A stretch of DNA of 38,866 bases from Akkermansiaceae bacterium (GTDB taxonomy: Bacteria; Verrucomicrobiota; Verrucomicrobiia; Verrucomicrobiales; Akkermansiaceae): assembly GCA_903826205.1 (NCBI GenBank), contig CAIKDP010000250.1:1-38866 (forward strand). Direction: 5' to 3'. This document shows positions 1,623-36,208 of this stretch, in pieces. A model generated the notes under the pieces. The model was not told where the DNA came from. It saw only the letters and a program-made list of their open reading frames with translations, and ran no database searches. Numbering within the stretch: the stretch's first letter is position 1; every line of letters starts with the position of its first letter. The position numbers and the translations under genes are program-made.

Positions 1623-1630
1623 AGCCCGCC

Positions 1631-5556: not shown

Positions 5557-5616
5557 CCGTGCTGGGTTATTGGCTTAATCAGCCCCCATTCCAGAAACCG
5601 CAAAGATTATTGAGTA

Positions 5617-5814: not shown

Positions 5815-5828
5815 CTGCCACTGTCAAT

Positions 5829-5851
5829 AACATAATGTCTGGCATTATGTT
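5829..5851. promoter_or_regulatory. 9-bp palindrome, candidate operator
   Basis: AACATAATG and CATTATGTT form a perfect inverted repeat around a 5-base centre. It is AT-rich, unlike the surrounding GC-rich sequence and unlike the GC-rich hairpins elsewhere. The size and symmetry suit a dimeric repressor such as a MarR- or TetR-type protein. It lies just upstream of the small minus-strand ORF at 5617-5814 and about 160 bases before the carboxypeptidase gene on the plus strand, so either could be the target. Confidence 0.4.
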
Positions 5852-5862
5852 TGTGGCCTTAT

Positions 5863-5879
5863 CTTAGCCGATGGCTAAG
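5863..5879. other. Short perfect hairpin
   Basis: CTTAGCC and GGCTAAG form a 7-bp inverted repeat with a 3-base loop, 11 bases after the palindrome at 5829-5851. No T-run is attached. It contains one of the rare TTAG words not preceded by G. Its role is unknown; a weak terminator or a protein-binding site are both possible. Confidence 0.35.
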
Positions 5880-5953
5880 TAAGGCAGAGGTGGACACAGG
5901 CTCAGTGCCAATAGTTGCCTCAGTGAGCCAAACGCCGTTGAAAGCCCGTGTGA

Positions 5954-6006
5954 AATCCCACCTTTGGGATTGAGTTGGCACGACGGACGGCTAAAGTCCG
6001 TTCGTC
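5954..6006. repeat. Two consecutive REP-like hairpins ahead of the carboxypeptidase gene
   Basis: Hairpin one is AATCCC/GGGATT (5954-5971) with a 6-base loop. Hairpin two is GACGGACGG/CCGTTCGTC (5982-6006) with a CTAAAGT loop and one G-T pair. The second ends 5 bases before the chosen start codon of the downstream gene. In a transcript reading through, it would cover the ribosome-binding region, so either the transcript starts inside it or it affects translation. A hairpin similar to the first lies at 23183-23206. Confidence 0.45.
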
Positions 6007-6011
6007 CGCCA

Positions 6012-6977
6012 ATGATTCGCACCCTGATTATCCGCCTGCTCGCGCTGCTGAGCGCTTGCACCCCCGTTCTGCTCAACGCCCAAGCGCCGGAGAGCCTCAT
6101 GGTCGTGGAAGCGTATTCCGGTAAAATCCTCCTTGCCAACAATTCGTCAGTGAGACGCCCCGTCGCCAGCCTCACCAAAATGGCCACCGCCGTCGTTGCC
6201 GTGGACTGGGCCATCGCCACCGGTTCCGATATCAGCCAACTCGTCATCACCGCCCCCCAAACCATCACGCTGGTCGGTGGTCCCAATCCGATGAACCTGC
6301 AACCCGGCGACTCACTGACCCTGCGCGACGCCCTCTACTCGGCCCTCCTTGGCTCGGATAACCTCGCCGCACTCACCATCGCCGACCACATCGGCCGACA
6401 AATCCTCGCCAAACGTGGCAAGGACGGTGATCCGGTGGCGACCTTTGTCGACGAGATGAACAAGCTCGCCAAGTTCATCGGCATGACTCAGACCAAGTTT
6501 TTCAATCCCCACGGTCTGGAGCGTCCCCGAGCACAAGGTGTCTCCACCGCGGCGGACATGGCACGGCTGGCCATTGTCACCATGCGGCGCAATGCCATCA
6601 ATTTCATCGTCCGCCAGCCAGAGCGCCAAATCAGCGTAACCGGCCCCGGCGGCAAACGCGGCTACCGCATCCGCAATACCAACGAATTGATCGGCGAAGA
6701 AGGCATCCTCGGCGTCAAGACCGGCACCACCGCGGCTGCCGGCCCCTGTCTGGCAACCTGCATGGACCGCGAGCCGCTGGTCCGCGCCAAAGCCGACGGC
6801 TCCAAGGGCGCCACCCCGCGGCGCCTCATCGTCGTCGTCCTCAACAGCCCCGACCGTTTCGGCCGCACCCGCAGCCTGCTGCAGCAAGGGTGGTCGATCT
6901 ACGACACCTGGCTGGCGGCTAACGCCCCCGTCCAGGATCCGCGCCGGGAAATCCTCAATGTGCCCAAGCCTAACTGA
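6012..6977 (+). CDS. Serine-type D-Ala-D-Ala carboxypeptidase (S11 family)
   Basis: 321 residues with all three penicillin-binding-protein motifs: SLTK at 53-56 (acylated Ser53), SDN at 115-117 and KTGT at 236-239. The family trims the terminal D-alanine from peptidoglycan side chains outside the inner membrane. The ATG at 6012 is chosen because it opens directly into a signal peptide (MIRTLIIRLLALLSA). The LSAC at 13-16 fits a lipobox, so it may be a lipoprotein; alternatively signal peptidase I could cut after LNAQA. At 321 residues it is shorter than DacA-type enzymes and appears to lack the C-terminal beta domain and membrane anchor, which favours the lipoprotein reading. It is flanked by non-coding repeats on both sides and is probably transcribed alone. 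Confidence 0.9.
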   Translation: MIRTLIIRLLALLSACTPVLLNAQAPESLMVVEAYSGKILLANNSSVRRPVASLTKMATAVVAVDWAIATGSDISQLVITAPQTITLVGGPNPMNLQPGDSLTLRDALYSALLGSDNLAALTIADHIGRQILAKRGKDGDPVATFVDEMNKLAKFIGMTQTKFFNPHGLERPRAQGVSTAADMARLAIVTMRRNAINFIVRQPERQISVTGPGGKRGYRIRNTNELIGEEGILGVKTGTTAAAGPCLATCMDREPLVRAKADGSKGATPRRLIVVVLNSPDRFGRTRSLLQQGWSIYDTWLAANAPVQDPRREILNVPKPN

Positions 6978-6987
6978 TTTCCAAGAT

Positions 6988-7140
6988 GCAAGACTTGAAG
7001 ACGCAAGACACAAGATGAAGAAAGTTAACTGTTATCGTTTATCAGGCATACGCTCAGCGCCATACCAGACCTTATCTTCCTCTTGTCTTCTGTCCTCTGT
7101 CTTCTGTCTCTTCCCCAATAACCGATAACTGATAACTCAC
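6988..7140 (+). repeat. Low-complexity spacer with a copy of a 27-bp dispersed element
   Basis: 6988-7014 is an AAGAC-rich 27-mer that recurs inverted at 17517-17543 with a single mismatch. After it come GTTATC/GTTAACTG words, a pyrimidine tract with TCTGTC and CTTCTG periodicity (7075-7112), and GATAACT repeats (7119-7138). The GTTATCGTTTATC part and the GATAACTGATAACT part are roughly complementary and could pair. No gene is present in this 186-bp gap. Confidence 0.6.
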
Positions 7141-7163
7141 AACCGACGCGCAGCGTCACTCCC

Positions 7164-7649
7164 ATGTCCCTCGATCCGCTCCTCCACTTGTTGTGCCGCA
7201 AGGCGCGCTTTTCCCATCAGGAACTGGGCGAACTGCTCGCCATCCCGCCGCAGGCGATAGCCGAGCGGATTGCCGCCTGGGAAAATGACGGGACCATCCT
7301 CGGCTACCATGCCGTGATCAACCCCGAAATTGCCGGCGACACTGCGGTGTCGGCCTTCATTGAAGTGAAGGTCACGCCCGAGCGCGGCGGCGGATTTGAT
7401 CGACTGGCCATGCGCGTGGCGCGCTTTGAGCAGGTGGTTTCCTGTTATCTCGCCAGCGGCGGTTACGATCTGATGGTGGTGGTGGAAGGCGGGGACCTGC
7501 GCGAGGTCGCCCGTTTTGTGTCCGAAAAACTCAGCACGCTCGAAGGGGTGATTTCCACCGCCACCCATTTCCGGCTCAAGACCTACAAGGAAAACGGCTT
7601 CCTCTTCGAACACGAAGCCGTGACCGAGCGCCTCGCCGTCTCGCCCTGA
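7164..7649 (+). CDS. Lrp/AsnC family transcriptional regulator
   Basis: 161 residues with the two-part Lrp layout. The N-terminal winged helix-turn-helix covers about residues 5-50 (FSHQELGELL, then IPPQAIAERIAAWENDGTILGYHAVINPE). The C-terminal RAM/ligand domain covers about 58-145 (SAFIEVKV, GGYDLMVVVEG, LSTLEGVISTATHFRLKTYKENG). Such proteins assemble as dimers or octamers and respond to amino acids. The start is the first ATG, giving the usual short N-terminus. No obvious target gene adjoins it, since it is convergent with the fucosidase gene and separated from the carboxypeptidase gene by a repeat spacer. Confidence 0.92.
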   Translation: MSLDPLLHLLCRKARFSHQELGELLAIPPQAIAERIAAWENDGTILGYHAVINPEIAGDTAVSAFIEVKVTPERGGGFDRLAMRVARFEQVVSCYLASGGYDLMVVVEGGDLREVARFVSEKLSTLEGVISTATHFRLKTYKENGFLFEHEAVTERLAVSP

Positions 7650-20045: not shown

Positions 20046-20317
20046 TCATAGCACACGTTCCTCGGCTCGGCGATGCTAATTTCCCACCGCCGCAGGAACC
20101 CGCGACGAAGCCCCGATCCCAAGGACCCCTCGCATATTCAGGCCTGCCCAAGGACAATAATTCAGGACGACCGTCTCAAAATATTGCAAAGCATTGACGC
20201 TGCGGGCGGGCTTGTAACACGCGACGTGATCCCATGTGCCAGAGCCGGGGCGGATTTCCAATAATCTTCTTGGTATGACTGGGCGGCTGGGCATTGTACC
20301 CGGCGAACAACGTCTGC

Positions 20318-22513
20318 ATGAATCCCCCGCTTTTTTTCTCACTCATCCTTGCCGGATTCGCGGCCGCCAGCGAGAGCGGCAAGCCATCCATCGCCACCAG
20401 CGCCCGGCAGGCCGTGTCCGACCTGCGCACCACCCTTTCGCTCGACGGCATCTGGCAGGTTGCCGAAGGCACGGCGGATGCGCCGCCGACGTCGTTTGAA
20501 CGAACGATGCAAGTGCCGGGATTGGTCGCCCATGCCGAACCGGCCTTCGAAGCGGACGGCATGGCCAGCCGCCGCCAAACCACGTTTTGGTTGCGCCGCA
20601 CCTTCACGCAGCCGGAGCCACTTTCCGCAGTGGCGCTGCTGCGCATCGGCCAGGCGCTCTACGGCTTCAAGGTGCGGATCAACGGCCGACCCGCCGCGGA
20701 AAACACCAGCGGCCAGGCACCGAGCCGTTTCGATGTCCGTCCATTTCTCAAACCCGGCCTCAATGAAATCTGCATTGCCGTCAACACCATGCCGGGATTT
20801 TCGCCGGAGGGCAAAAGGGATTGGGGTGAGGAACATGGCAACATAGTGCCGCCCCCGAAGGTTCCCGTCGGTTGGGATTTCGAAAAAGACAACTTCATCC
20901 CCGGCATCACCGACTCCGTGGAACTGGTGACAGCGGGAAGCCCCTTTGTGCGGCTCACCCAGGTGGTCCCGGACATCCAGCAACCGGCCGCCACGGTGCA
21001 TGTGTGGTTGCAGGGAGTGCCAGCCGGCAAGTCGCCCGTTACTGTGAGGGTAAGCGAATGGAAGAGTGGCAAAGCGGTCGGTGAAACCCTCGTGCATGCG
21101 GAAGGTGACGCGCAGGGCAACGCCCATGTCATTGCCAGGGTGGATATATCTAACGGAAAGCTGTGGGCGCCGGAAGCGCCCTTTCTTTACACCGCCTGTG
21201 TCACCACCTCTAACGACAGCCACACAACCCGCTTCGGTCTGCGCACCTTCACCTTCGACCCCCAATCCCGGCGTGCCATCCTCAATGGCAAGCCATATTT
21301 CATGCGCGGCACCAACTATTGCCTGCAGCGCTTCATGGACGATCCGAAGATATGCCAACATCTGCCGTGGGACAAAAGCTGGGTGCGCGGACTCCATCAA
21401 AAAGGCAAAGCCATGCAGTGGAACACCATCCGCTACTGCATCGGCCTGATGCCGCAATTCTGGTATGACATCGCCGACGAGGAGGGCTTCCTGATCCAAA
21501 ACGAATACCCGCTGTGGACGCTCGAACAACCGTTGGAGAACTCCATCAACGGCTCCGTCGAGGCGTTGGCCAGGGACTACCGGGCCATGCTGGAAGCGCA
21601 CTGGAACCATCCGTCCGTGGTGATTTGGGATGCCTGCAATGAATCCAACCACCGTGAGTCCGGCGAAGCCATCAAACGCGTGCGGGATCTCGATCTATCC
21701 AACCGGCCGTGGGACAATGGCTGGAACGAACCGCAACGCCCCACCGATTCCGTCGAGGCGCATCCCTACTACTTCAGCGAAGCAAAGGGTCATGCCTGGC
21801 TCGGCGGATTGGCAGACGCCAACCGCAACGCGGATGCCGGGCGGGCCAACATGAAGGCCCCGCCTTGCGTGATCGTCAACGAATACGGCTGGCTCTGGAT
21901 CAACCGGGACGGCTCGCCCACCACGTTGACCTATCCGATTTTCAAGCGGATCCTTGGCGACGCCAACTCCGCGGCCAAAAACCGTCACCTCTACGCACTC
22001 TTCCAAGCCACCGAGACCGAGTTCTGGCGCCATGCCCGCACGGCCGCCGCCGTCATGGAATTCTGTTCGCTGGGCTATTGCCATCTGGGTGTCGGCATGA
22101 CCAGCGACCATTTCCTGGAAAACAACGGCGTGAAAAATCTGGAGTTGGAACCGGAGTTTTTGAAACACGTCGGCGACGCCTTTGCGCCCGTCGGCGTCAT
22201 GATCCAATACTGGAAGCCGGAAATGACGGCCGGCAAAACCCTGCCACTTTCTATCAGCCTCATCAACGACCTGGAAAAACCGTGGAGCGGCAAGCTCACC
22301 TTGCGCTTCATCCGCGAGGGCGCAAGCGTCGCCGAATTCACCAGACCCGCGGAATTGACGCCGCAGGGTGCCGCCCTTGTGGCGTTTGAAGCCGTTGCCG
22401 TTCCCGCAAGCCCCGGCGACTATCAACTCGTCGCAGCCATCGAAGGTGCCGACGCCAAGCCCGTGCAAAGCGTGCGGGAAATCACCATTGTTGCTGCGAA
22501 AACGGCTCCATAG
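20318..22513 (+). CDS. Glycoside hydrolase family 2 enzyme, exported
   Basis: 731 residues from the ATG at 20318, which opens a signal peptide (MNPPLFFSLILAGFAAASES); a TTG 24 bases upstream is less likely. Order of domains: N-terminal sugar-binding jelly roll (SLDGIWQVAEG, TTFWLRRTF, FKVRINGRPA), an immunoglobulin-like middle domain, then a TIM barrel starting near LNGKPYFMRGTNYCLQRF. The acid/base is probably E442 in WDACNES and the nucleophile E522 in VNEYGW. Members act as beta-galactosidases, glucuronidases or mannosidases; the specificity cannot be read here. A final Ig-like domain of about 120 residues closes the protein. No gene follows in operon-like spacing. Confidence 0.92.
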   Translation: MNPPLFFSLILAGFAAASESGKPSIATSARQAVSDLRTTLSLDGIWQVAEGTADAPPTSFERTMQVPGLVAHAEPAFEADGMASRRQTTFWLRRTFTQPEPLSAVALLRIGQALYGFKVRINGRPAAENTSGQAPSRFDVRPFLKPGLNEICIAVNTMPGFSPEGKRDWGEEHGNIVPPPKVPVGWDFEKDNFIPGITDSVELVTAGSPFVRLTQVVPDIQQPAATVHVWLQGVPAGKSPVTVRVSEWKSGKAVGETLVHAEGDAQGNAHVIARVDISNGKLWAPEAPFLYTACVTTSNDSHTTRFGLRTFTFDPQSRRAILNGKPYFMRGTNYCLQRFMDDPKICQHLPWDKSWVRGLHQKGKAMQWNTIRYCIGLMPQFWYDIADEEGFLIQNEYPLWTLEQPLENSINGSVEALARDYRAMLEAHWNHPSVVIWDACNESNHRESGEAIKRVRDLDLSNRPWDNGWNEPQRPTDSVEAHPYYFSEAKGHAWLGGLADANRNADAGRANMKAPPCVIVNEYGWLWINRDGSPTTLTYPIFKRILGDANSAAKNRHLYALFQATETEFWRHARTAAAVMEFCSLGYCHLGVGMTSDHFLENNGVKNLELEPEFLKHVGDAFAPVGVMIQYWKPEMTAGKTLPLSISLINDLEKPWSGKLTLRFIREGASVAEFTRPAELTPQGAALVAFEAVAVPASPGDYQLVAAIEGADAKPVQSVREITIVAAKTAP

Positions 22514-25513: not shown

Positions 25514-26149
25514 TCAGAGCCGGTGGAACTTGGCGACGGCTTGGGAGCGGCTGCGGACCTGGAGTTTTTTGTAGATGCGGCCGACAAAGGTTTGCACCGT
25601 CCAGTAGCTGATGTTGAGGTGTTCGGCGATCTCCTTTTTGAGCAGGCCCTTGGCCAGCAGTGCCAGAATCTCCACCTCCCGCGGGCCGAGTTGGGAATCG
25701 TCGCCGTCGGCGGCGGCCGGCTTCTGGAAAGTCTGCACCACACGGCGGGCGATGTTCATGCTCATCGGCGCACCGCCGGCGCGCACTTCCTCGATGGCCG
25801 CCACCAATTGCCCCGGTTGCACCGGCTTGACCAAATAGCCACTGGCCCCCGCCGCCAGCGAGTCGAACACCGAGTCAGAGTTGTCATAGACGGTGACCAT
25901 GATCACTTGCATCGCCGGCAACACCTGGCTGAGCTGGCGCACGCATTCCACCCCGCTCATGCCCGGCAGGTTGATGTCCATCAACACCACCGCCGGGCAC
26001 AGCCCGGGCAACGCCGCCAACGCTTGCTCCGCATCGGCAAACGCCCCGGCACACGCCAACTGCGGCGCGGTTTCTAACATTTCAACGAAATACGAGCGCA
26101 GCGCGTCGTCGTCCTCGACCACCGCCACCGTGACGGGTGGCGTGCTCAT
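25514..26149 (-). CDS. Response regulator, NarL/FixJ type
   Basis: 211 residues. The receiver domain (about 6-122) has the acidic pair in VVEDDD, the phosphoacceptor D58 in VVLMDINLPGMSG, and the conserved Lys in LVKPVQPGQ. A LuxR-type helix-turn-helix covers about 153-205 (LGPREVEILALLAKGLLKKEIAEHLNISYWTVQTFVGRIYKKL). The ATG at 26149 overlaps the kinase stop in an ATGA, so the two are translationally coupled and form a pair. Its target genes are unknown; the adjoining glycosidase-like gene suggests a glycan-related signal, which is inference. Confidence 0.95.
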   Translation of the reverse strand: MSTPPVTVAVVEDDDALRSYFVEMLETAPQLACAGAFADAEQALAALPGLCPAVVLMDINLPGMSGVECVRQLSQVLPAMQVIMVTVYDNSDSVFDSLAAGASGYLVKPVQPGQLVAAIEEVRAGGAPMSMNIARRVVQTFQKPAAADGDDSQLGPREVEILALLAKGLLKKEIAEHLNISYWTVQTFVGRIYKKLQVRSRSQAVAKFHRL

Positions 26150-26970
26150 GACGCCCCCTTCGTTGTTAGAGGCAACGTCAACACCACCAGGGTGCCCTGG
26201 CCGGGAGTGCTGCGCCGCTCGAAAGTGCCACCGATGTGTTGCATGCGTACCCGCATGTTGCGCGACCCGCGGTGTTCTGACAAGGCCGACGTGTCAATAA
26301 AGCCGCAGCCGTTGTCCTGCACTGTCACGCGCAGGCGCTGGTCCTCGAGCGCGATGCCCAGGGTCACCTCGGTGGCGCGGCCATGGCGCACGGCGTTGTG
26401 CAGGGCTTCCTTGGCCGCGAGAAACAGGTTGTGGCGGCGCGCGGAGGTGAGCGGCCGCACCGGCAATTGGTCGGGCACTTCAAACCGCGAACCCACCCCG
26501 GCCAATTCCAGATAGGTCTGCGCGGACTGGCACAAGTATTGGGCGAAGTGCTCAATGCTGTCGTTGGCCGGAGTGACCGCCCACACGATTTCCTCCAAGC
26601 GCCGCACGGTGTTGCGCGCGTGACCGGCAAGCTGCTCCAACTTGGCGTCCACCGCCGGGTTGCCGGGCGTTTGCAATTTAGTTAGATCACTGAGCATGGC
26701 AATGCCCGCCAGCTCGGTGCCCAGGTCGTCGTGCAAGTCGCGGGCGATGCGGGCGCGTTCCGCGGCGAGTCCATGCAGGCGCTGCATGCGCAAAGCCACC
26801 ACGTAGCGCCACGCCCCAAACCCCAGACTGGCCACCACCAGCGCCACCAGCAACCAGAACCACAAACGACGCGTGAGCGGCAGCTGGATTTCCAGATCCA
26901 CGCGTTGCGGCTGGCCGTGTTGGCGGTCCGCCAGGCTGACCCGCCAAACATTGTCGCCGGCGCTGGCCAC
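26146..26970 (-). CDS. Sensor histidine kinase (HisKA_3), N-terminally truncated
   Basis: About 274 residues from a GTG at 26970. One transmembrane helix covers about 37-56 (FWLLVALVVASLGFGAWRYV). Then comes the HisKA_3 box ERARIARDLHDDLGTELAGI with phosphorylated H80, and a HATPase domain with an N-box like AAKEALHNAVRHG and a G-box DNGCGF. Kinases of this class normally have a large extracytoplasmic sensor before the helix. Here only about 36 residues precede it, and an in-frame TGA (27006-27004) lies 12 codons upstream. The reading frame is thus cut off where the out-of-frame glycosidase-like gene arrives. It may be a deletion product, a frameshifted fusion, or a kinase with an unusually short input region. 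Confidence 0.85.
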   Translation of the reverse strand: MASAGDNVWRVSLADRQHGQPQRVDLEIQLPLTRRLWFWLLVALVVASLGFGAWRYVVALRMQRLHGLAAERARIARDLHDDLGTELAGIAMLSDLTKLQTPGNPAVDAKLEQLAGHARNTVRRLEEIVWAVTPANDSIEHFAQYLCQSAQTYLELAGVGSRFEVPDQLPVRPLTSARRHNLFLAAKEALHNAVRHGRATEVTLGIALEDQRLRVTVQDNGCGFIDTSALSEHRGSRNMRVRMQHIGGTFERRSTPGQGTLVVLTLPLTTKGAS

Positions 26971-28507
26971 ATCCTTGAGCGCACAGCCGCTGGCCGCCGG
27001 TTGTCAACATACCCTCCACTTCCACCGCCAAATAATACACGTCATGATCCACCGCAAACCAGCGGCCGTTGAGCCGGCCGTACGGCCGCAGGTCGTTGAT
27101 GAGCGCCGGCAGCATCCGCCGGCCCGCATCCGGGCCGATCCGGCTGGCATCCACGCAACCGACCACCGCGCGCTCAGGCCGCTTGGTACTCCCGCAGTAG
27201 AGGAGATAAGTCTCCTCGCCGGCGGCCTGGCGGATGGCCGCCCAAGTGTCGCGTTGGATTTCAAAGGCGGAGCGCTTTTCCCCCGCCGCCCGTTTGACCG
27301 CAGGCTCACAAGAGACTTTTAGATAACTGAAGCCGCTGTCCACGGCGCGGCGGACCGTAGCGGTGATTTCCCCGACTTCCATCGGGCTGCCCGCCACCTC
27401 GGGATTCGGGTTTGGGTCGAATGCCAGCCGCAGGCCAAAGCGCGCGCCGATCCCGCCGACGCGCTGTGCCACCTCCGGCAGCCATGGTGCCTCCAGCACG
27501 TCGCGGCCGTTGGGCGACATGTCTTCGATCTCGATCACCCCGGGGCGCAAGCGTCCGCCGGACTCGCGCACCGCAGCCACCACATCGAGCGCCTCCCCGC
27601 GGGGATCTTTGCGTTTGAGGAAATTCCAACTGTTCCAACCGGTCAGGGCACCCTTGGTCGTGCGCGCGCCGTGGGTCTTGCCCACCCACTCCACCCAGCG
27701 CGCCAGCGCCTGATCCGGCGGCTCCATCAACATCACCACCTGTTGGCCCCAGCGCGTTTCGCCGGGATCCACCCGCGCGCCGCTCATCTCGGACGTGAGA
27801 TTGAAGGCCACCCTGCCATCCGCAGCCGGCGCGAAGCGGGCGTTGACGTAGGCCGTCGGCGAGCCGACCGGGCCGAACCAAAATCCCTTGCCCGAGCCAT
27901 GATAGAAGCCGCCCGCCTCATGCGCGTCCAACGGTTGGGCCAGTTCGTTGAGCGCGGTGACCGCCGACACCGGGTTGTGGAAACCGGTGATCAGCCACTG
28001 CACCGGAAGGCCGTCCGCCTTGATGGTTAGATCGAGCGCCGTCAGGCTGACCAGTTCTAACGACTTCTGGCCGCCATTGCGGATGGCGGCCTGCGCCAGA
28101 ACCCCCGGCACGCCCGGCACCCGCCCTAACCGCAACAACAGGTCCACTTGCTCGTTTTCAAAGCGGAGCGCCGTCTCAGTCACCAAGGCCGTGCCGTAGG
28201 GCGTTTCTTCCGTTAGATTCCGCACCAACCCCACCACGGTGAGCGCCGCGCCGGCGGACGACACCAGTTGCTTTGCCTCACCGCCCGCGATGATGCTTGC
28301 GCCAAAGCCACCCTGCATCCCGCTCCATCCCGGTGCCGTCACGCTGATGCTGCGGCCGTCGGCGGCCAGCGCCGCGCCCACTGCGGCGGCATCCGGCATG
28401 GCACAAGCCAACCCGCAGGTGGCCAGCAGCGCCAGTGCCAGCCATCCCGGGCTCCAATGGGTGTGTGTCACTCCGCCACCACTGGGCGAGCGCCGCGGCC
28501 AATGCAA
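26687..28507 (-). CDS. Alpha-galactosidase-like (GH27/GH36-type) protein, truncated and running out of frame into the kinase gene
   Basis: 606 codons, of which only about 1-500 look like protein. There is a signal peptide (WLALALLATCGLACA), a beta-rich N-terminal domain, then a GH-D-type TIM barrel beginning TGWNSWNF and including ARFGLRLAFDPNPNP, YLLYCGSTKRPERAV, DASRIGPD and NGRWFAVDHDVYYLA. The block that should be LKxD reads YLKVSCEP, so the usual nucleophile Asp is missing. At about 27010-26993 homology stops, and the last hundred or so residues are Arg-, Gly- and Pro-rich noise: they are the kinase gene read in the wrong frame. The end of the barrel and any C-terminal domain are lost. 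Possibly inactive, or a decayed sensor half of the kinase. Confidence 0.7.
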   Translation of the reverse strand: MHWPRRSPSGGGVTHTHWSPGWLALALLATCGLACAMPDAAAVGAALAADGRSISVTAPGWSGMQGGFGASIIAGGEAKQLVSSAGAALTVVGLVRNLTEETPYGTALVTETALRFENEQVDLLLRLGRVPGVPGVLAQAAIRNGGQKSLELVSLTALDLTIKADGLPVQWLITGFHNPVSAVTALNELAQPLDAHEAGGFYHGSGKGFWFGPVGSPTAYVNARFAPAADGRVAFNLTSEMSGARVDPGETRWGQQVVMLMEPPDQALARWVEWVGKTHGARTTKGALTGWNSWNFLKRKDPRGEALDVVAAVRESGGRLRPGVIEIEDMSPNGRDVLEAPWLPEVAQRVGGIGARFGLRLAFDPNPNPEVAGSPMEVGEITATVRRAVDSGFSYLKVSCEPAVKRAAGEKRSAFEIQRDTWAAIRQAAGEETYLLYCGSTKRPERAVVGCVDASRIGPDAGRRMLPALINDLRPYGRLNGRWFAVDHDVYYLAVEVEGMLTTGGQRLCAQGCGQRRRQCLAGQPGGPPTRPAATRGSGNPAAAHASFVVLVAGGAGGGQSGVWGVALRGGFAHAAPAWTRRGTRPHRPRLARRPGHRAGGHCHAQ

Positions 28508-28540
28508 GCGAAAGTTATGGGTGAGCGGGAAAATGACCGG

Positions 28541-28634
28541 TCTTCGTACGTAGGCGCGTTCGTGAGAACGCGGGTCTTCGTAGGCACGTTCGTGAGAACG
28601 CGGGCCTTCGCAGGCGCGTTCGTGAGAACGCGGG
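28541..28634 (+). repeat. Three tandem copies of a 30-bp palindromic repeat
   Basis: Copies at 28541-28574 (with a 4-base ACGT insertion), 28575-28604 and 28605-28634. Each contains the perfect hairpin GCGTTC, GTGA loop, GAACGC (copy two has a single stem change, CACGTTC) followed by a GCGGG tail. There are no spacers, so it is not a CRISPR. A diverged single copy is at 4852-4879. The array lies directly upstream of the truncated glycosidase gene start. Confidence 0.8.
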
Positions 28635-28657
28635 GGATTGAGGTGATGCGGACTAAG

Positions 28658-28700
28658 AAAACCACAGAAAGAACTAGTGCCACTGAGGGCACCGATTGAT
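28658..28700 (+). repeat. Copy of the AACCAC dispersed repeat
   Basis: Starts AAACCACAGAAAGAACTAGT and continues with CACTGAGGGCACCGATTGATT. It shares the AACCACnGA and CACTGA words with the element at 7718-7785. It follows the tandem palindromic array in a 540-bp gap (28508-29046) where I see no gene. Confidence 0.4.
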
Positions 28701-28760
28701 TTGGAAGACGGGTCTTGGCAAGGCCGGTTTCACCCCAGGGCCCTCTTCTCTTCCCTTGAT

Positions 28761-28833
28761 CCTTGGATGTTGGGAGTTGGATATTGGATATTGAAAATGG
28801 CCGAATTGAATGTCCAATTTCCAAGGTCCAAGG
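28761..28833. repeat. TTGGATATT-rich imperfect inverted repeat
   Basis: The left half repeats TTGGA/GGATATT words; the right half repeats TCCAATTTCC/TCCAAGG words. The outer CCTTGGA (28761-28767) and TCCAAGG (28827-28833) are complementary. The whole 73-bp element could fold imperfectly. It is AT-richer than its surroundings. Confidence 0.45.
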
Positions 28834-28852
28834 TGAAGAGAAGACCCACCGC

Positions 28853-28934
28853 ATGGAGCAAGCTCCATCCTCCCCACGGCGGCGGCAAGCCGCCGCACTC
28901 CATGGCGGATAAGTCGGCGGACCGGGCCGGTCCG
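28853..28934. repeat. Three consecutive perfect hairpins
   Basis: Hairpin one: ATGGAG/CTCCAT, loop CAAG (28853-28868). Hairpin two: GCGGCGG/CCGCCGC, loop CAAG (28879-28896). Hairpin three: CGGACCG/CGGTCCG, loop GGC (28918-28934). The first two share the same loop with unrelated stems. They lie just downstream of the rhamnosidase gene on the minus strand and could end its transcript, though no T-run is present. Confidence 0.5.
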
Positions 28935-29046
28935 CCCTACCTGCGATGCCACTGAAGATAAGCCTAACATTCGCCAGCGGCGATGCGCATGAGACGGGCG
29001 GCGCCGGCAACTTTTCCCGCAGGGGAAAAGGAGTCGCAGACCGCCG

Positions 29047-32000
29047 TTACGGCGCCGGCAGGGTGGCGCAGGTGAGGATGCGCACCGGGCCTATCAGGCC
29101 GGATTCCTGCAAGGCCTCGTTTTTACCCCAGAGCCGCCAGGTGCTGAAGGTGAAGCGGCCGCTGGGGTTGGGCTTGCCTTCCAGCAGCCAGGCGGGCCAG
29201 GCGCGCAGCGAGCCATCGCCATTGAGTTCGCAATCGGCGGGCAGGAACTCATCGCCGATCATGCGGTTGATCCACAGGTTGACGACGCTGACCTGCAAGG
29301 TGTTGGTGCCGCTCTTGACGGCCTCGGTGATTTCGATGCGGAACGGGGCCTTCCACAGGATGCCTAGGTTTTTGCCGTTGAGTTTGACTTCCGCCATCAC
29401 CGCCACGTTGCCGAGGTCCAGATAGAGGCGGCGCTTGTTGCCAAGCATTTCCTGAGAGATGTCGAACGTCTTGCTGTAGGTGGCGGTGCCTGAGAAATGC
29501 TTCACGCCGGGATCCGGGTGCTGGCTCCACGACACCAACTTGTCCAGGGTGACTTTGTCAGGCGCACCCCACTGCGGCGGGAATGCCACCTCCCATGGGC
29601 CGGCGAGTTCCATGGGTGCCGGCAACGCGCCGACCTCGAAGCGGCGGCTCTTGTGATCCGCGGTCTGCAGTTCGTACACCCCCGGCTGCGCCACCGTGCC
29701 TTGGACCAGATCGAGCGCATCCGTCGTGGCAGGTGACTGTGCCACCTCCAGAATGGGCAGACCGTCGCGGGTCACGCGCAACACCTGTTGGGCCGGGTCC
29801 GCCTTGTCCCGGAACACCACAAACACCGAACCGCTCGGCCCGAACTGCAGCGGCAGCACCGTGCATCCGTTAGGCTCGACCCGGTAACCGGGAATGGGCC
29901 GCATGCTGCCGGTCTCCGGATCCCATAACTCCGGTTGCCGGCCACTCACCCGGAACGAACAGAGGGAACTGACAGGCTGATCGACACCTGTGGCCACAAA
30001 GTAAACTTCCGCGCCATCGACCGTGCGGTGGATCCAATTGAGTTTCTTGTCGGAGTTGAAATCGGGCACCACGTCGAGCTTGGCCAGGACTTCTTCCGGT
30101 TTCATGCCGCGGAACACGCGACCCTTGCCGACGACGCGGTCTTTCACCGTCTCGTCGGTGCCCCACAATTCCTCGGCGAGTTTCTTCAACACCAGATCGG
30201 CCTGTTGGGAGTCGGCCAGGCCCGGGGTGGCCTCCGGCGCGGGGCCGAGGATCACCGCACCCTCCTCCACCAGGCTTTTGATTTTCCTGAGCATGGCCAC
30301 GCTCATGTTCTTGGTGTTGGTGGTGGAGAGCGCCAGCAAGCGGTAGCGCATGCCGGTGGCCAGGACCAGCCGCCCGTCTTTCACACCCGCCTGATTGACG
30401 AATGCCTGCGGGCTGATGCCATCGTAGTCATATCCCGTTAGAGACAGCAGGTTGAAGCGTTGCATCGGCTCCTCCGGCTGCAGGCTGAGCACGTCGGCGA
30501 CGAAGGTTCCCTGCCGCAACAGGTATTGGCAGCGGGCCAGGTATTGGTGCCAGGCCTTGGAGTTTTCCCACCACGTCTGGGTCCGCTCATAGTGCAGGCC
30601 GTAAGGTCCCATGCTCACGCCGGGCCGCAGGTCCCGCGCCCACGGTTGCATCGCGTAACGGTGGAAAACGATGCGGTTGACCCCGCCGCACAACACCCGG
30701 TCGCCGCGCGCCTTGATGGTGGCCGGATGGCCGCGCCACCGCTCTCTTCTGTTAGATGTGAACGACTCCGCGCCGACCACCGGCCGGCCGTTGACGTGTG
30801 CCGCGGAGGCCATCGCCTTGAGCGTCCAGTCCAGCCGTCCGCCGCCCGACCACCAGAACTCGCACATCGGTTCATCCACGGCATTGATCACATCCATGTC
30901 GAGGGCGGGCGTGCCGTAGGCTTCCATTGAGAGCCGCATCCCGTGGGCATGGGCCAATTTCCCGAGATGCCCGATGTAATTTTCCGTGAGCAACTGCGAC
31001 ACGGTCTGGCGCAGGTCCCACAGGAAGCGTTCCGTAATGTCCACGCTGCCGATGAAGCGTCCGGTTAGAATCGGCAGGAACGGCAACATGTCATAGCCGC
31101 GCAACCTCTTGAATTCCTCGCGCATCTTCGGCGTCCAGTTCTGGCCGCCAATCTCCCAGCTGTCCACATGGGTCGACACCAGGGTTTTTCCCGCCAGCGG
31201 CCCGACGTCATCGATCAGCTTGCCGATCATCCCGTCGAATTGCGCCTCAATCCCCTCCTTGCTCAACTTGTCGCACTCCGGGCCGATGCCGGTGGCCGGC
31301 GCCGGATGGCTTTCCGCCCCGCTGAAAGTGTGGCCGAAACGCACCACCGTCCATTCGCCCTCGGGCGGGCTCGTCTCGTCGTTGCGCCCGAGTGCGGGGG
31401 CGTCCCACACCAGCTTGCCATCCGCGTTCATCCGGTCCGTTAGATCCACAATCCGCGCCTGCTCGATCATGACTTCCCCGGGCACCTTGGCCTCGCGGTC
31501 GGTGCCCATGCTGTAACCGGAGATATACGACCACGACACCGATTTTTCCGCCAGGTTGCGGACCCGGTCCTCGATGTTAGGCAGGGTCTTGGGCGTCGGA
31601 AACGCCAGCACGGCGATATCGCGGTAGTATCCCTTGCAAGTGCGCGGCGGCGGCAGCACGCCCGCGAATTTCTTGCCGCCGGGCACGCGTTGTTCGCTGG
31701 TGACGACCACCTGCATCGCCTTGTCGAGCGGGATCCACGGGCCGCCGCTGCCGTTCCAGCCGGCGTCGTCATTCATGTTCACCTCGATGCCGAGGCGCTG
31801 GGCCTCGCTGGCCATGTGTTTGAAAAGGGTGCGCCATTCGTCGCTCATGAAGACCACCGGCCCCACCGGGGTGCCCTGGTCCACTTCCATGATCAACACC
31901 CCGCCGATGCCGACGCGCTGCATTGCCTCCAGATCCGCGGTGATGCCTTCGCGGGTGATGTTGCCGTTGAGCCAGAACCAGTAAACCCAGGGCTTGGCCG

Positions 32001-32127
32001 CCGCGGGCGGAGTGACAAAGTCACGCTCCAGCGCGCTCTCCGCCGCCGCAACCCGCAACACCGGCGACAATATCAGCAGGCCGAGCATAACTAACAACCA
32101 TCCCGTGGCATAAACCCTCTTAGGCAT
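29047..32127 (-). CDS. GH106-type alpha-L-rhamnosidase, exported
   Basis: 1026 residues from the ATG at 32127, chosen because a signal peptide follows (LLVMLGLLILSPVLRVAAA); the frame continues upstream without one. The opening FVTPPAAAKPWVYWFWLNGNITREGITADLEAMQRVGIGGVLI (in part) is the GH106 hallmark. It is followed by DEWRTLFKHMASEAQRLGIEVNMNDDAGWNGSGGPW. The middle has STHVDSWEIGGQNWTP and EAYGTPALDMDVINAVDEPMCEFW, where catalytic glutamates of the family lie. The C-terminus is a galactose-binding-like fold (RLYLDLGNVAVMAEVKLNGKNLG, NTLQVSVVNLWINR). It removes alpha-L-rhamnose from pectic or other glycans outside the cytoplasm. It is codirectional with and 95 bases downstream of the pilin-like gene. 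Confidence 0.9.
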   Translation of the reverse strand: MPKRVYATGWLLVMLGLLILSPVLRVAAAESALERDFVTPPAAAKPWVYWFWLNGNITREGITADLEAMQRVGIGGVLIMEVDQGTPVGPVVFMSDEWRTLFKHMASEAQRLGIEVNMNDDAGWNGSGGPWIPLDKAMQVVVTSEQRVPGGKKFAGVLPPPRTCKGYYRDIAVLAFPTPKTLPNIEDRVRNLAEKSVSWSYISGYSMGTDREAKVPGEVMIEQARIVDLTDRMNADGKLVWDAPALGRNDETSPPEGEWTVVRFGHTFSGAESHPAPATGIGPECDKLSKEGIEAQFDGMIGKLIDDVGPLAGKTLVSTHVDSWEIGGQNWTPKMREEFKRLRGYDMLPFLPILTGRFIGSVDITERFLWDLRQTVSQLLTENYIGHLGKLAHAHGMRLSMEAYGTPALDMDVINAVDEPMCEFWWSGGGRLDWTLKAMASAAHVNGRPVVGAESFTSNRRERWRGHPATIKARGDRVLCGGVNRIVFHRYAMQPWARDLRPGVSMGPYGLHYERTQTWWENSKAWHQYLARCQYLLRQGTFVADVLSLQPEEPMQRFNLLSLTGYDYDGISPQAFVNQAGVKDGRLVLATGMRYRLLALSTTNTKNMSVAMLRKIKSLVEEGAVILGPAPEATPGLADSQQADLVLKKLAEELWGTDETVKDRVVGKGRVFRGMKPEEVLAKLDVVPDFNSDKKLNWIHRTVDGAEVYFVATGVDQPVSSLCSFRVSGRQPELWDPETGSMRPIPGYRVEPNGCTVLPLQFGPSGSVFVVFRDKADPAQQVLRVTRDGLPILEVAQSPATTDALDLVQGTVAQPGVYELQTADHKSRRFEVGALPAPMELAGPWEVAFPPQWGAPDKVTLDKLVSWSQHPDPGVKHFSGTATYSKTFDISQEMLGNKRRLYLDLGNVAVMAEVKLNGKNLGILWKAPFRIEITEAVKSGTNTLQVSVVNLWINRMIGDEFLPADCELNGDGSLRAWPAWLLEGKPNPSGRFTFSTWRLWGKNEALQESGLIGPVRILTCATLPAP

Positions 32128-32222
32128 GGGGTAGGATTCACAAATAAAACGGCTTTGAAGATGCGCTGTCATGCCACGGTGATACCGCATCGGGAGACAT
32201 CTGCAAGGACGAAGATGCCGGA

Positions 32223-35200
32223 TCAAATCTCGCTGGCATTGAGCCAGCGCAGCGAGGTGATGAGGAAGCGCCGGCCGAAGGTTTTGTTGGCCTGGCTCTG
32301 TAAGGCGCTGGGGGCGGTCTCCACCGCGTCGGCGGCATCGACCCATTCGGGAACGCGTTGGACGACGGCTTCGCAGGTGGCGCTGGCCAGGATCTTGCCC
32401 TTGGCGTCGCGCGCCTCGCCGTAGCCGCGGATGGTGAAAGTGTCGGAGCGCGGCGTGGCGGCATTACCTAACACGCCAAGCAGGTCCGCCTGGGTGAGGA
32501 ATCCCGGGGCCCCCTGATAGCTTGGGCCTGCGCCCGCCGGTCCGTTCAGGTACTTGTAGCTTTTGACCGCAGCGGCGGGAATCTCGAAGCCCGCTCCGGC
32601 TTTAAGGGCGATGGCGGAATTGATTGCGGCATCGTCGATCGCCTGTTGCAGCGCCCCGCGCTGGGCTTTGTCGTCGGTGCCGAGGCGGCGGTTGACGAAC
32701 TCCGCCATCGAAAGGAACGGCCCGTAGCGGCGGACTTGTTTGACGATGTTGGTGGCGAGGTCCTGCAATTGGCTGTCCGAATACTCGCGCGGGCCGAGCC
32801 AATAGCCGTCCTTGAGTTCGGCCCCGTCCGCGGCGGAGTTGGACGCCGGCAAGCGGAAGCGGCTGATGCGGGCCTCCTGCGTGCCGACGTCGGTGAGGTC
32901 GCCGAGCTTGGAGGTGGGCGGCACGGCCGATTTCATGACCTGATTGACGAGCGCTTGCGAATCGTGGATGGATCCGAGCATGGCTTTCCACGCCAGGACC
33001 GAGGTGGAGTTGACATTGAACGCACCCTCCATCCATTGCCATGCGGCGACCCGCGTGGGCCCATCCGGTTTGGCGACCACACCCGCAAACTCGCTGGCAG
33101 GACGGTTGTCCGGCCGGTGCAACTGCAGGCGCGGGTCATCCAGCGGCTTACCCGCGGCAAAATCACCGGCAAGCACGGCGGCCGTCCTGGCATTGGCACC
33201 GAAGGGCCCGGCTTGATCGGCCAGACCCGAGAAGTAAAAGCCATCGTAGAACGCGAGGTTGAGCAGAAACGAATGATCGAGACAATTGCCGCCGGTTCTG
33301 GGCTCCGAGAGCCTGGTGGGGGATATGAGCGGGTGCGCCCAGGAATTGCCAATGGGCTGGGCGAAGCGCGGCAGATAGCCGGAAGCTCCGCCGGGGTTGG
33401 CCCCGTTGAGGCTGACAAACGATTGCAGCGGCGCGAGCGGAATGTCGTATTGGGCGCCGAATTTCGTGCCGTAGGTCGAACTGTGACCGGAGATGAAATT
33501 GCCGCGGTCTTGCTTGTCGACTGACACCAGGTTGGTGGCACCCTTATTCAAATCGAGGAGCTGCAAGTCGATTTCATGGGAAAAATTCGCGCAGTGTTCG
33601 CTAACGACTTTTTGGGTGGAGGCACCGATGTTGGCATGGGCGAAGCACCACGGCTTGGTGGCGAGGCGGCCGTCTTCGTTGCTGACATCGCGTGCGCCGG
33701 ATGTGGACTTGGCCTGCACGCTGAGCAGGGCGAAGGGCTTGGTTTTCACCAAATCCTTGATCGCGGTCGTCGCATGCTCCACCATGTCAAACCCTCTAAC
33801 CGTCCCGGTCTTCGGATAGCGCAGGGTGCCGCCCTTGCCAATAATGAAGTCCTGAAGGCCGGTGGGGGATTCATAATCCATTTCGATGGCGTTGATAGTG
33901 ATGCGGCTGGCCGGGTTTTGGGGATCGGGGATGGACAACTGGACAGTGAATTTATTGCCGCTGGGCGGCACACTCAATGGGGCAAACAGCACGTGAAACT
34001 CGTCATCGGCGGCCAGCCCCATGCACGATTCCCAATGGCCGTTTTCCTTGTTGCCATCGATCGCCTGGCCCCCTGCCAAATAGTCGCAGTCAAAACCGAT
34101 GCCATAACCGCGCCACCCGGGGATGGCATTGATGTTTTTCTCTAGGCCTTTGTATTCCCAATCCCAATATTGCGGATTGGCGAGGTCCTGAAGATAGGTG
34201 CGGTCCGGATCAATGTAGGGCGAAAACACTTTCACCTCGCCAGGCAACAACCGGAAGGTCGTGGTATCGGGCTGGCCTGACGTCGATTTGCTTTTTAAAT
34301 TCATCCCGAAGACCATGGGCTTCGAACCACTGGTATTGGATCCATACATGGTCTCCAAAGGCACCAGCCCCCTGCTTTGCGCCACTCCATTGCGAAACAA
34401 CTGCATGGCAAAGGGCACCCGCACAAACTCGACCCGCATGTCGGCGCACTCAAGGGCGACGTTGTACGGGTTGTGGAGCGTGACGATGGGCGTGTAGAGC
34501 AGGTGCAGGTCGTATTTGTATTTGGTGCCGCGGAAGTGGTTGCCCTGCGGATCCTGGATTTGTGGTGCGTTGTCGGGGATCGGGCTGCCGATGGGCGGCG
34601 GGTAGCCATAGATATCGTGACCTATCAGACTGAAAAGCATTTGCACTTTGGCAAGGGTGGGCAACAACAACACCCCGGGCGGTGGCGTGCGGTTGAGGGT
34701 CGTCACCGGTGGATTGTCGGCGGACGTGGTGGCCGCCACCCATTTGGTTGGCGTCAAGGTCTTGAGGAGGGGCACGCCCGCCACACTGGTGAGCTTGTCT
34801 CGATAGAGGCGGCAGAACTGGTGCAGCGCCGCCCATGGCGGGTCGGAGGGCACTTCGGCGGTCTTCATCCCCAAAAGTGTGGCGTAAACCCCCTTGCCGT
34901 TGTACATGGCGGGCAGCGCCGCCGGGTTTGTGAGCAACTGGAAATCCTGCTTGAGCCCGCCGTGGGCGACGTCGGTGAGCAAGCCGACGGATTGGGTGGT
35001 GACGTCATGGGTGACGATTTTCAAGGCGTCCTGGGTGCCTTTGGCGAGACTCTCACCCGCCAAGGCGAAATTGAGACGGGTGATCCCTTTGGCGAGGGTG
35101 GTGGCTTGCGGTGCCGATTTTTCAAACATCACGCGTTCAAGGCCGGCGAGCCCGGTGATGAACTCCACGCCGGGGCGTTCCCCCGCCCCAAGTTGCGCGG

Positions 35201-35825
35201 TTTTGGCTCCGGATGTGTTGGCCCCATCGATATAAGGCGTGTTGATGCGGGCCTTGGTGCCTTCGTCAAGCACGGCCCATGCCAGCGCCCCGGGCGATGA
35301 GGCCAGCGCCACTTTACTGGCACTCACCAGACTCGTGGCAAGGGCCCGCTCGCCCAAGCTGCCCCTGCCCCAAAGCGTCACCGGGGAGATCGGGGCCTGA
35401 CTGGCAAAAGTCGCTTGCCGGGCCGTCGCCGGATCGGGATGAGACACCAGCCACGCCTTGAACTTGGCATTCTTCGCCTCCACTTCGTAGTCCGCCGCTT
35501 TCGGCGGGGCCGTGGCCTTGATCTCTAACGACTCCCACACGCCCGTGAGCTGGGGATTGGCAATTTTTTCATCGAGGATGTCGGCCCGGGCGGTGACGCG
35601 CTGGTCCGGACCGGCGCTGCGCTGGAGTTCGCCGAGCGCCAGCAGCATCGCCAGCCGGGCGTTGGCCCGCGCCGTGGCCATCGCCTCCCCCTGCGTTGCG
35701 CTGCGCAGCGCAACCGTCGACAGCGACAGCAGCCCGATCGTGAGCAACGTCAGCAACACCATCAGCGCCAGCGTCACCACCAGGGCGAATCCGTTGCCAC
35801 GCAGGGATTGGGGACAGTCACTCAT
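32223..35825 (-). CDS. Verru_Chthon cassette protein A-like: giant pilin-like envelope protein
   Basis: 1200 residues from the ATG at 35825; the frame upstream to 36095 has no coding character. A pilin-type leader, MSDCPQSLRGNG then FALVVTLALMVLLTLLTIGL, is followed by ALRSATQGEAMATARANARLAMLLALGELQRSAGPDQRVTARAD (in part), the signature start of this Verrucomicrobia family. Cleavage would fall after the Gly, leaving FALVV. The fifth residue is Val, not the Glu of ordinary pilins, as in GspK-type minor pseudopilins. The rest is a very long extracytoplasmic region ending SLRWLNASEI, again as in the family. Proteins B, C and D of the usual cassette are not here. It may be processed by the prepilin peptidase at 3641-4801. 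Function is unknown. Confidence 0.85.
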   Translation of the reverse strand: MSDCPQSLRGNGFALVVTLALMVLLTLLTIGLLSLSTVALRSATQGEAMATARANARLAMLLALGELQRSAGPDQRVTARADILDEKIANPQLTGVWESLEIKATAPPKAADYEVEAKNAKFKAWLVSHPDPATARQATFASQAPISPVTLWGRGSLGERALATSLVSASKVALASSPGALAWAVLDEGTKARINTPYIDGANTSGAKTAQLGAGERPGVEFITGLAGLERVMFEKSAPQATTLAKGITRLNFALAGESLAKGTQDALKIVTHDVTTQSVGLLTDVAHGGLKQDFQLLTNPAALPAMYNGKGVYATLLGMKTAEVPSDPPWAALHQFCRLYRDKLTSVAGVPLLKTLTPTKWVAATTSADNPPVTTLNRTPPPGVLLLPTLAKVQMLFSLIGHDIYGYPPPIGSPIPDNAPQIQDPQGNHFRGTKYKYDLHLLYTPIVTLHNPYNVALECADMRVEFVRVPFAMQLFRNGVAQSRGLVPLETMYGSNTSGSKPMVFGMNLKSKSTSGQPDTTTFRLLPGEVKVFSPYIDPDRTYLQDLANPQYWDWEYKGLEKNINAIPGWRGYGIGFDCDYLAGGQAIDGNKENGHWESCMGLAADDEFHVLFAPLSVPPSGNKFTVQLSIPDPQNPASRITINAIEMDYESPTGLQDFIIGKGGTLRYPKTGTVRGFDMVEHATTAIKDLVKTKPFALLSVQAKSTSGARDVSNEDGRLATKPWCFAHANIGASTQKVVSEHCANFSHEIDLQLLDLNKGATNLVSVDKQDRGNFISGHSSTYGTKFGAQYDIPLAPLQSFVSLNGANPGGASGYLPRFAQPIGNSWAHPLISPTRLSEPRTGGNCLDHSFLLNLAFYDGFYFSGLADQAGPFGANARTAAVLAGDFAAGKPLDDPRLQLHRPDNRPASEFAGVVAKPDGPTRVAAWQWMEGAFNVNSTSVLAWKAMLGSIHDSQALVNQVMKSAVPPTSKLGDLTDVGTQEARISRFRLPASNSAADGAELKDGYWLGPREYSDSQLQDLATNIVKQVRRYGPFLSMAEFVNRRLGTDDKAQRGALQQAIDDAAINSAIALKAGAGFEIPAAAVKSYKYLNGPAGAGPSYQGAPGFLTQADLLGVLGNAATPRSDTFTIRGYGEARDAKGKILASATCEAVVQRVPEWVDAADAVETAPSALQSQANKTFGRRFLITSLRWLNASEI

Positions 35826-36208
35826 GAAGCCGAAACGATCAACAAGGCCGGAAAAATAATCGCCACCGCCCGACCCGGCACTGTGCGCCGGCACCCGCTT
35901 GTTAGTGTCGCACAGAACCACGCACGAACCTACGGATGGAAAGACGCCAGTGCAAGGTGGCATTTGCACCCGGCCCTTGCGGCGCAGGGTGCTTGCCTTG
36001 ATCAGGATGTCCCTACAGCGCAGGCTTGGAGAGGCGGCGACCGCGTGCTGAGGCACGCCCGGCGAACGCGACAAATTCACTGACGATCGTCGCAAGAATT
36101 GTCGCGATCCGGCTTCCTGCCAAATTTCATGCCTCTGCGGTGGGTTGCCGGTCGTTATTGCAGTCAGCCAAACGCCCGGCTTTGCAGGGCCGCAGCGGGC
36201 AGTGTAGG
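35826..36208. other. Divergent intergenic region without a visible gene
   Basis: This 383-bp stretch and the repeat after it separate the divergent pilin-like and ACT-domain genes, and must hold their promoters. GTGCAA/TTGCAC (35949-35970 region) forms a weak inverted repeat, and GACGATCGTC near 36080 is a 10-base palindrome. Neither is diagnostic, and no coding frame here looks real. Confidence 0.4.

Follow-up and report, generated by a model that had tools for sequence, protein, structure and literature searches.

Does the minus strand of this locus carry the remains of two neighbouring genes or of one? The window, by which we mean the whole stretch of 38,866 nucleotides (nt) from an Akkermansiaceae bacterium (assembly GCA_903826205.1, contig CAIKDP010000250.1, positions 1 to 38,866), contains a glycosidase-like reading frame that runs out of frame into a truncated histidine kinase gene. 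An original prediction, made from the letters of the DNA, proposed either a deletion that fused two neighbours or a glycosidase-like sensor kinase interrupted by a frameshift. Taken as a whole, the results described here make it very probable that the window carries the damaged gene of a sensor kinase, the sensor being a pseudo-glycosidase with the GH36 fold. The broken gene on the minus strand is referred to as the window copy; C-labels denote contigs of its own genome and L-labels denote fetched loci.

Intact relatives of both halves encode one protein composed of a signal peptide, a GH36 (alpha-galactosidase) fold, a transmembrane (TM) helix and a HisKA_3/HATPase kinase. The own genome (G000) measures 5.57 Mb in 469 contigs and is 97.66% complete. 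It matches the glycosidase half at 6 other places and the kinase half at 14. Six paralogues are present, four of them as single open reading frames (ORFs), namely C335, C189, C179 and C421 with 1041, 986, 1047 and 1056 residues, respectively. Another lies across two contigs, C53 and C50, which both end inside one gene, have an exact 123-nt end overlap and together resemble a fifth copy, and the last, on C466, is cut by the contig end. Both window halves match the unbroken ORF of C335, with 79% identity for the glycosidase half and 53% for the kinase half. Aligning the halves to relatives, as the original prediction had suggested, hence finds a single protein, and the reading as separate genes is ruled out because the intact homologues are single ORFs. 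A short kinase and a short glycosidase occurring as normal, separate proteins were sought among the relatives and not found.

The family extends beyond this genome and its distribution is patchy. Genomes of the same genus contain 8 single ORFs of 970-1059 amino acids (aa), and the copy in G028 runs to the contig end. A scan of public genome contigs with two peptide patterns matched 58 stretches, of which 40 were confirmed as loci; 38 of these hold 39 kinase-linked ORFs and 2 hold only a kinase-free relative. The public loci come mostly from metagenome-assembled genomes (MAGs) of Verrucomicrobia, and one is titled as Kiritimatiellia. At an E-value of 1e-20, matches, kinase-free relatives included, are present in 12 of 73 genomes of the genus and in 10 of 288 and 13 of 387 genomes sampled from the order and the phylum, with few candidates scored per genome. 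Individual members vary in layout. L103 (413-4240) encodes 1276 aa with about 160 extra sensor residues, and L084 (6241-12910) carries two kinase-linked copies and their regulators in tandem in one genome. The kinase-free relative L185 (6297-9212), which has an NPCBM/NEW2 domain within its GH36 region and both catalytic aspartates, lies about 16 kb from this tandem pair if the two are on the same contig, as we take them to be.

The window copy is interrupted at one point by an internal deletion. Its glycosidase-like ORF, listed at 28507-26687 and with a stop-to-stop start at 28729, remains family-like as far as about 26990-27000, and below the junction the alignment shows no family-like sequence, much as the predicted loss of likeness near 27010 would have it. 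Behind the TGA that had been noted at 27006-27004, the kinase frame stays open across 27003-26149. The roughly 36 residues predicted ahead of the TM helix agree with the 35 counted from a GTG at 26970 but not with the 46 counted from 27003. That both genes are cut at the same spot was correctly recognized, as a segment of C335 is matched twice in the window, the two DNA matches sharing positions 26992-26997. Since the two halves match a single ORF and their DNA matches overlap, the break is not a product of chance. Compared with C335 the window copy is short of about 599 nt, and compared with C189 of 596 nt; both numbers leave a remainder of 2 when divided by three, so that the frame changes. 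Of the two proposals, the interrupted sensor kinase stands insofar as intact fused homologues exist and catalytic residues are lost (see below), but the lesion is not a plain shift of 1-2 nt, which is ruled out by the missing 599 or 596 nt. The deletion was likewise rightly suspected but is internal to one gene. A deletion joining two unrelated neighbours, a glycosidase and a sensor kinase, would explain why two frames meet at one point, yet in this and other genomes one intact ORF covers both halves, one at each end, and we regard this alternative as hardly credible. Programmed frameshifting was also considered; inspection of the junction by eye revealed no motif for it, nor would such a shift bring the missing domain back.

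The missing segment corresponds approximately to residues 510-707 of a structural model of the intact relative L070, comprising helices 510-523 and 536-546, a strand at 526-529 and beta strands between 556 and 698. The window copy is consequently left without the final part of the barrel or the C-terminal beta domain. At the junction (26998-26990) the sequence reads GGCGGCCAG; its first 7 bases are those of the glycosidase side of C335, and in both C335 and C189 the kinase side is similar to it. This likeness to both sides suggests that the deletion probably arose by slippage between short direct repeats, the microhomology being deduced from comparison with C335 and C189. The ratio of nonsynonymous to synonymous change (dN/dS), compared as a possible sign of decay, is in the glycosidase half 0.34, 0.42 and 0.38 for the window copy against C335, C189 and C53, and 0.36 for C335 against C189. 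In the kinase half it is 0.56, 0.75 and 0.53 against C335, C189 and C50, and 0.50 for C335 against C189. Judged by the lesion itself, the window copy is probably a pseudogene: loss of about 599 nt would have taken away the barrel end together with the C-terminal beta-sandwich and put the remainder out of frame, leaving a truncated sensor and a sensorless kinase beside four uninterrupted sister copies. Alternatively, the truncated kinase might be made alone, as a constitutive or partner-dependent protein, so that the split gene would be functional. The kinase frame and the regulator are indeed open and a GTG is available at 26970, but no good ribosome site is seen by eye ahead of it and the relatives' loci examined contain no short kinase as a normal form, which makes a functional split very improbable. 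A second broken member is present in another MAG (L106, 9860-12036), with a sensor spread over two frames (191 and 606 aa) and a shortened kinase match.

The sensor of the intact relative L070 is predicted to adopt the GH36 (clan GH-D) fold, with a beta-domain, a (beta/alpha)8 barrel and a C-terminal beta domain. Pfam searches found nothing significant in the sensor of the window half or of four paralogues, apart from Melibiase_C at an E-value of 0.021 in one of the four, and NCBIfam searches of four linked proteins returned only weak kinase matches, far under the cut-offs, and left the sensor unnamed. A profile built from four sequences reached the Thermotoga maritima GH36 alpha-galactosidase entries 1zy9 at 4.3e-11 and 5m0x at 4.5e-11, and a single-sequence search still reached both at 4e-7. 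An AlphaFold2 model of L070 (986 aa, 57% identical to C335), computed with 31 sequences, has a pLDDT (predicted local distance difference test) of 85.8 and a predicted template modelling score of 0.73, with helices at residues 8-30 and 751-815. In a Foldseek search with this model, the first 34 rows are alpha-galactosidases and one alpha-galactosaminidase (9ayu at 2.2e-23, 5m0x at 1.2e-20). VIA comparison with 1zy9 gave a Z of 24.9 and a root-mean-square deviation of 2.9 over 443 aligned residues, and model residues 286-648 matched a plant alpha-galactosidase with a Z of 28.7; the VIA rows span mainly model residues 35-654, which is the sensor and not the kinase part.

No kinase-linked copy retains both catalytic aspartates of GH36 enzymes. 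In alignments with PDB entries, the family motif YLKIS falls opposite YFKID of the T. maritima enzyme, and SRIGPD opposite its RIGPD. We assume Asp 327 of that enzyme, located by counting back, to be the nucleophile. The Asp of GPD is taken as the acid/base residue from the mutant chain common to 6gta and 6gwf, which has Ala at this position (D378A and D387A in the respective titles). The catalytic columns were read from MAFFT alignments. Of the sequence sets, A2 comprises 12 of 14 linked sensor parts, with C53 and the window copy left out, as well as the C466 fragment, and A3 comprises 31 of 42 family ORFs of L070-L109 (29 linked, 2 kinase-free), with L075, L081, L083, L093, L097, L099, L102, L103, L106, L107 and L109:18593-21055 left out. 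Both Asp residues are present in 0 of 46 kinase-linked rows (0 of 45 and then one more row, with G/V) and in all 24 kinase-free rows (9 of 9, then 15 of 15). The 46 include the broken or partial rows of the window copy, C53, L093, L097, L106, L107 and L099, the last without sequence around the nucleophile motif so that its 'P' is unsure. In the second draw, kinase-free means that the same ORF contains no kinase match, and L173:2845-3489, a fragment of a broken kinase-free gene without the catalytic columns, was dropped. Among the 45 linked rows, 3 keep the nucleophile Asp and 10 the acid/base Asp, an acid (D or E) at both positions is found in none, and 23 different residue pairs occur, the window copy having S/D. 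Control residues are retained in the linked rows: the Asp of VDASR and of WFAVD in 45 of 45 each, the Trp of GW in 44 of 44, and the Lys of YLK and the Arg in 42 of 45 each. At the second residue of the IDD motif, 9 of 9 kinase-free rows and 6 of the linked rows carry Asp. The catalytic pair is lost and pocket residues are retained, which indicates that, as read from these columns, constraint acts on the fold and on part of the pocket but not on catalysis. The glycosidase part could in principle still be an enzyme of altered chemistry whose product the kinase senses, considering the single Asp kept in some copies (nucleophile in 3 of 45, acid/base in 10 of 45) and the much-preserved pocket scaffold. 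Among the residues that stand in place of the nucleophile are G, F, L, V, A and Y, none of which can act as one there, and the pair is never complete nor acidic at both places, which argues against this alternative and renders it very improbable. Judged from the alignments and the model, these proteins form a family of pseudo-glycosidase histidine kinases for which glycan binding is a likely role.

Fusion to the kinase probably preceded disarming of the active site, which would have occurred repeatedly. In a sensor tree of 54 rows, built with the catalytic columns included, the 45 linked rows lie on one side of a branch with support of 100/100, with L091, L104 and G017b as the closest kinase-free rows. 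Linked lineages that keep a single Asp do not all keep the same one, so a count that forbids regain places both residues in the linked ancestor and hence the fusion before the disarming. This no-regain count requires at least 8 nucleophile losses and at least 6 acid/base losses, with the pair broken in at least 3 lineages (3-4 as the 5-95% range over 200 bootstrap trees), while plain parsimony needs 4 nucleophile changes and 3 acid/base changes. The proposed order of events depends on the no-regain assumption.

The kinase domains and an adjoining regulator recur across the kinase-linked copies. For the window half and C335, HisKA_3 and HATPase_c exceed the Pfam curated cut-offs, and the two domains are matched in four of four intact paralogues. 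The phosphoacceptor His is present in all 43 linked rows reaching that column and in the kinase parts of the window copy and C50. A response regulator similar to the receiver-GerE protein of the window follows 40 of 40 testable linked copies, and the other 5 of the 45 stop at a contig end within 211 bases; the regulators of L092, L094 and L101, whose frames overlap the kinase frame far upstream, were taken from coordinates, and L186 lies outside this count. No regulator is found beside any of 5 kinase-free rows. We propose that the GH36-type fold is located outside the cell and, having lost one or both catalytic Asp residues, most likely acts as a binding domain for a galactoside or a similar glycan, which it would not cleave. 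This binding would be relayed through the single TM helix to the HisKA_3/HATPase_c core, which would phosphorylate the regulator encoded directly downstream, and the regulator would then switch genes, perhaps those for glycan breakdown. The window copy itself has no in-frame sensor. Among chosen neighbouring ORFs, glycan-type genes encode GH106 beside the window copy and C466, GH2 and a SASA esterase beside C335, and GH2 and a polysaccharide deacetylase beside C179. As these ORFs were chosen without a genome-wide control, they give only a hint that neighbouring genes are glycan targets of the sensors.

Several observations weigh against this interpretation. Chosen ORFs near three other copies do not fit a role in glycan breakdown as readily: C53 adjoins a TOTE conflict gene and a methylase with no carbohydrate-active enzyme (CAZyme)-type gene, C189 adjoins DNA polymerase III and a sulfatase, and C421 adjoins an FGE-sulfatase-type protein and efflux genes. 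The linked rows form one clade, so that the 46 rows are not 46 independent events. Pfam Melibiase (PF02065) is unmatched in the linked copies scanned and also in the kinase-free L104 and L185; the kinase-free L171 and L066 reach its cut-off, and with kinase-free copies split in this way a Melibiase match separates little. Contigs end inside other family genes (C53/C50 with their exact overlap, and C466), which makes a mis-assembly of the window copy possible. The break would then be an assembly error and the gene in the cell an intact, ordinary family member, in line with a genome in 469 contigs and with two window halves otherwise free of further stops. On the other side, exact stretches common to the compared family genes measure at most 42 nt, while the 123-nt overlap of C53 and C50 hints at a longer assembly word, and the repeat at the junction is shorter than 10 nt. 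The missing segment, sought across the own-genome contigs, matched only other family copies save for a 31-nt match on C350. A real deletion is favoured, and an assembly error appears rather unlikely.

The boundary between sensor and kinase coincides with an abrupt change in divergence. Identities among the four closest own-genome copies (C335, C189, the window copy and C53/C50) are 67-80% in the sensor and 62-84% in the stalk and TM helix; the kinase core reaches 38-41% and the regulator 42-50%, with the drop located at ERARIARDLHD at the start of the core. Synonymous distance between the window copy and C335 is 0.33 in the sensor, 0.25 in the stalk and TM helix and 1.35 in the core, and since it also jumps at the core, a change in protein constraint alone would not explain the seam. 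Most of the closest cross-genome pairs have similar sensor and core identities (86/91, 79/85 and 79/79%). Uneven pairs are C335/C189 (76/39) and L078/L097 from one genome (77/40), and intermediate or reversed pairs are L100/L101 (73/57), L078/L107 from one genome (72/55) and L085/L088 (58/78). Across 903 non-independent pairs, the identity of the sensor does not track that of the core (Spearman 0.01). The cores of C179 and C13 share 68% identity and those of L073 and C443 share 66%, and both groupings have an SH-aLRT of 99 in a quick kinase-core tree made without bootstrap, in which C335, L077 and L086 are marked as long and unsure. C13 and C443, like C426, are kinases with Reg_prop and Y_Y_Y sensors according to Pfam, domains that were not matched in the four linked own-genome members scanned; the C426 core has at most 45% identity to the other cores compared. 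These comparisons suggest exchange of sensor modules as the simplest account of the seam. A fuller scenario, to which we give slightly better than even chances, would start with one capture of a GH36 protein by a kinase and separate disarming in the lineages, after which the sensor would have become an interchangeable antenna moved by recombination at ERxRIARDLHD. The GH36 sensor, stalk and TM helix would thereby have been placed on varied core and regulator pairs, including those of beta-propeller kinases, producing combinatorial glycan sensors.

Known systems share parts of this architecture. GH36 alpha-galactosidases (T. maritima 1zy9/5m0x and others) have the fold and pocket scaffold of the sensor but are enzymes with both catalytic Asp residues and without a kinase. 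AgaSK (alpha-galactosidase-sucrose kinase, PDB 2yfn) likewise fuses an alpha-galactosidase to a domain called kinase, but is an active enzyme with a metabolic sugar kinase and not a signalling protein. DesK/NarX-type HisKA_3 kinases with NarL/LuxR-type regulators correspond in kinase core and regulator type, and their sensor domains are unrelated to the GH36 fold. The nearest precedent found is RsgI6 of Clostridium thermocellum, a host from another phylum. Its GH10 domain is described as retaining binding at very low activity and as functioning in sensing, and the likeness lies in a weakly active, glycan-binding glycosidase fold serving as the extracytoplasmic sensor of a membrane regulator (PMC4711584). 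It differs in having a GH10 instead of a GH36 domain and an anti-sigma factor for SigI instead of a histidine kinase and regulator as output; the present family has neither the N-terminal anti-sigma domain nor a SigI partner of RsgI proteins but a HisKA_3/HATPase_c output and a response-regulator neighbour. Reg_prop/Y_Y_Y kinases, of which the own genome has some, including C13 with its close core, share the sensor-TM-kinase layout but sense through a propeller and Y_Y_Y and not through a glycosidase fold; BT4663 is given with a Y_Y_Y domain in the available part of a review of histidine-kinase sensing (PMC8534201).

Among the open-access titles and abstract openings listed, which for some searches were the best 10-15 of 21 to 7,426 papers, none describes a glycosidase-type histidine kinase, subscription papers and preprints lying outside this scope. 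Neither 'glycosid' nor 'hydrolase' occurs in the accessible text of the sensing review (PMC8534201). Both terms are also absent from the accessible text of a kinase-domain census, which left sensor domains out so that its silence says little (PMC4558063). As far as the covered literature goes, the kinase and the fold are each known, and their pairing and the pattern of disarming are new. The family represents an enzyme fold turned into apparent receptors, and with apparently active relatives remaining, the transition from enzyme to sensor is open to testing at the level of single residues. Differences at the former active site suggest different ligands and a source of glycan biosensors, and the seam resembles a naturally kept trace of sensors being swapped from one signalling pathway to another. 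Surveys based on Pfam or NCBIfam may overlook the sensor because the scanned copies show the kinase only. The features of the window are collected in Table 1.

Table 1. Coordinates of the broken sensor kinase gene and adjoining features in the window.
Feature	Position	Strand	Basis
Array of 2.9 copies of a 30-nt unit with palindromic GCGTTC-GTGA-GAACGC element, upstream of gene	28549..28634	+	
Proposed GTG start of broken gene	28471-28469	-	inferred
N-terminal half: signal peptide, N-terminal beta-domain, most of GH36-like barrel	27005..28471	-	79% identity to C335
TCT (Ser) codon at GH36 nucleophile Asp position, motif YLKVS	27311..27313	-	alignment
GAT (Asp) codon at GH36 acid/base position, motif SRIGPD, kept	27128..27130	-	alignment
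TGA stop of kinase frame, beside junction	27004..27006	-	sequence
Deletion junction GGCGGCCAG	26990..26998	-	comparison with C335 and C189
Out-of-frame tail of glycosidase frame over kinase gene, not family-aligned	26687..26989	-	
C-terminal half: stalk end, TM helix, HisKA_3, HATPase_c	26149..26997	-	
TM helix	about 26797-26865	-	
HisKA_3	26566-26760	-	PF07730 5e-12
Phosphoacceptor His codon	26731-26733	-	alignment
HATPase_c	26164-26430	-	PF02518 4e-11
Response regulator, Response_reg and GerE (LuxR-type)	25514..26149	-	PF00072, PF00196; ATG overlaps kinase stop (ATGA)
GH106 alpha-L-rhamnosidase, possible target	29047..32346	-	PF17132 2e-187

Further features were noted around the gene. A second CAZyme-type gene of the window, a 739-aa ORF with Glyco_hydro_2 domains (20294-22513), lies on the opposite strand about 4 kb beyond the regulator. 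A 1290-aa ORF at 32223-36095 has no Pfam match and weak NCBIfam matches to Verru_Chthon cassette protein A and GspK. On C53 (L020), a TOTE conflict system primase/helicase and an N6 methylase, at 2110-6672, stand beside the sensor gene. Of possible signs of a mobile origin, neither a tRNA in the window nor a plasmid match to the L070 sensor was found. A scan of 28400-29100 returned no promoter-like site (0.1 expected) and two terminator-like matches (0.5 expected), which are one palindrome (28676-28693) read on both strands. With up to 2 mismatches allowed, the palindrome GGCGCGTTCGTGAGAACGCGGG has 94 occurrences in the genome, sometimes in short arrays, compared with 0 for a reversed control. 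It is found upstream of the sensor genes of the window, C335 and C189, with copies at C335:4302-4999 and C189:45-193. The element is REP-like (repetitive extragenic palindromic) in appearance and could have been carried along with sensor-gene duplication or have helped it. At the contig end, positions 1-103 of the window form a tandem array of about 10 copies of the unit GTCCCCTAC.

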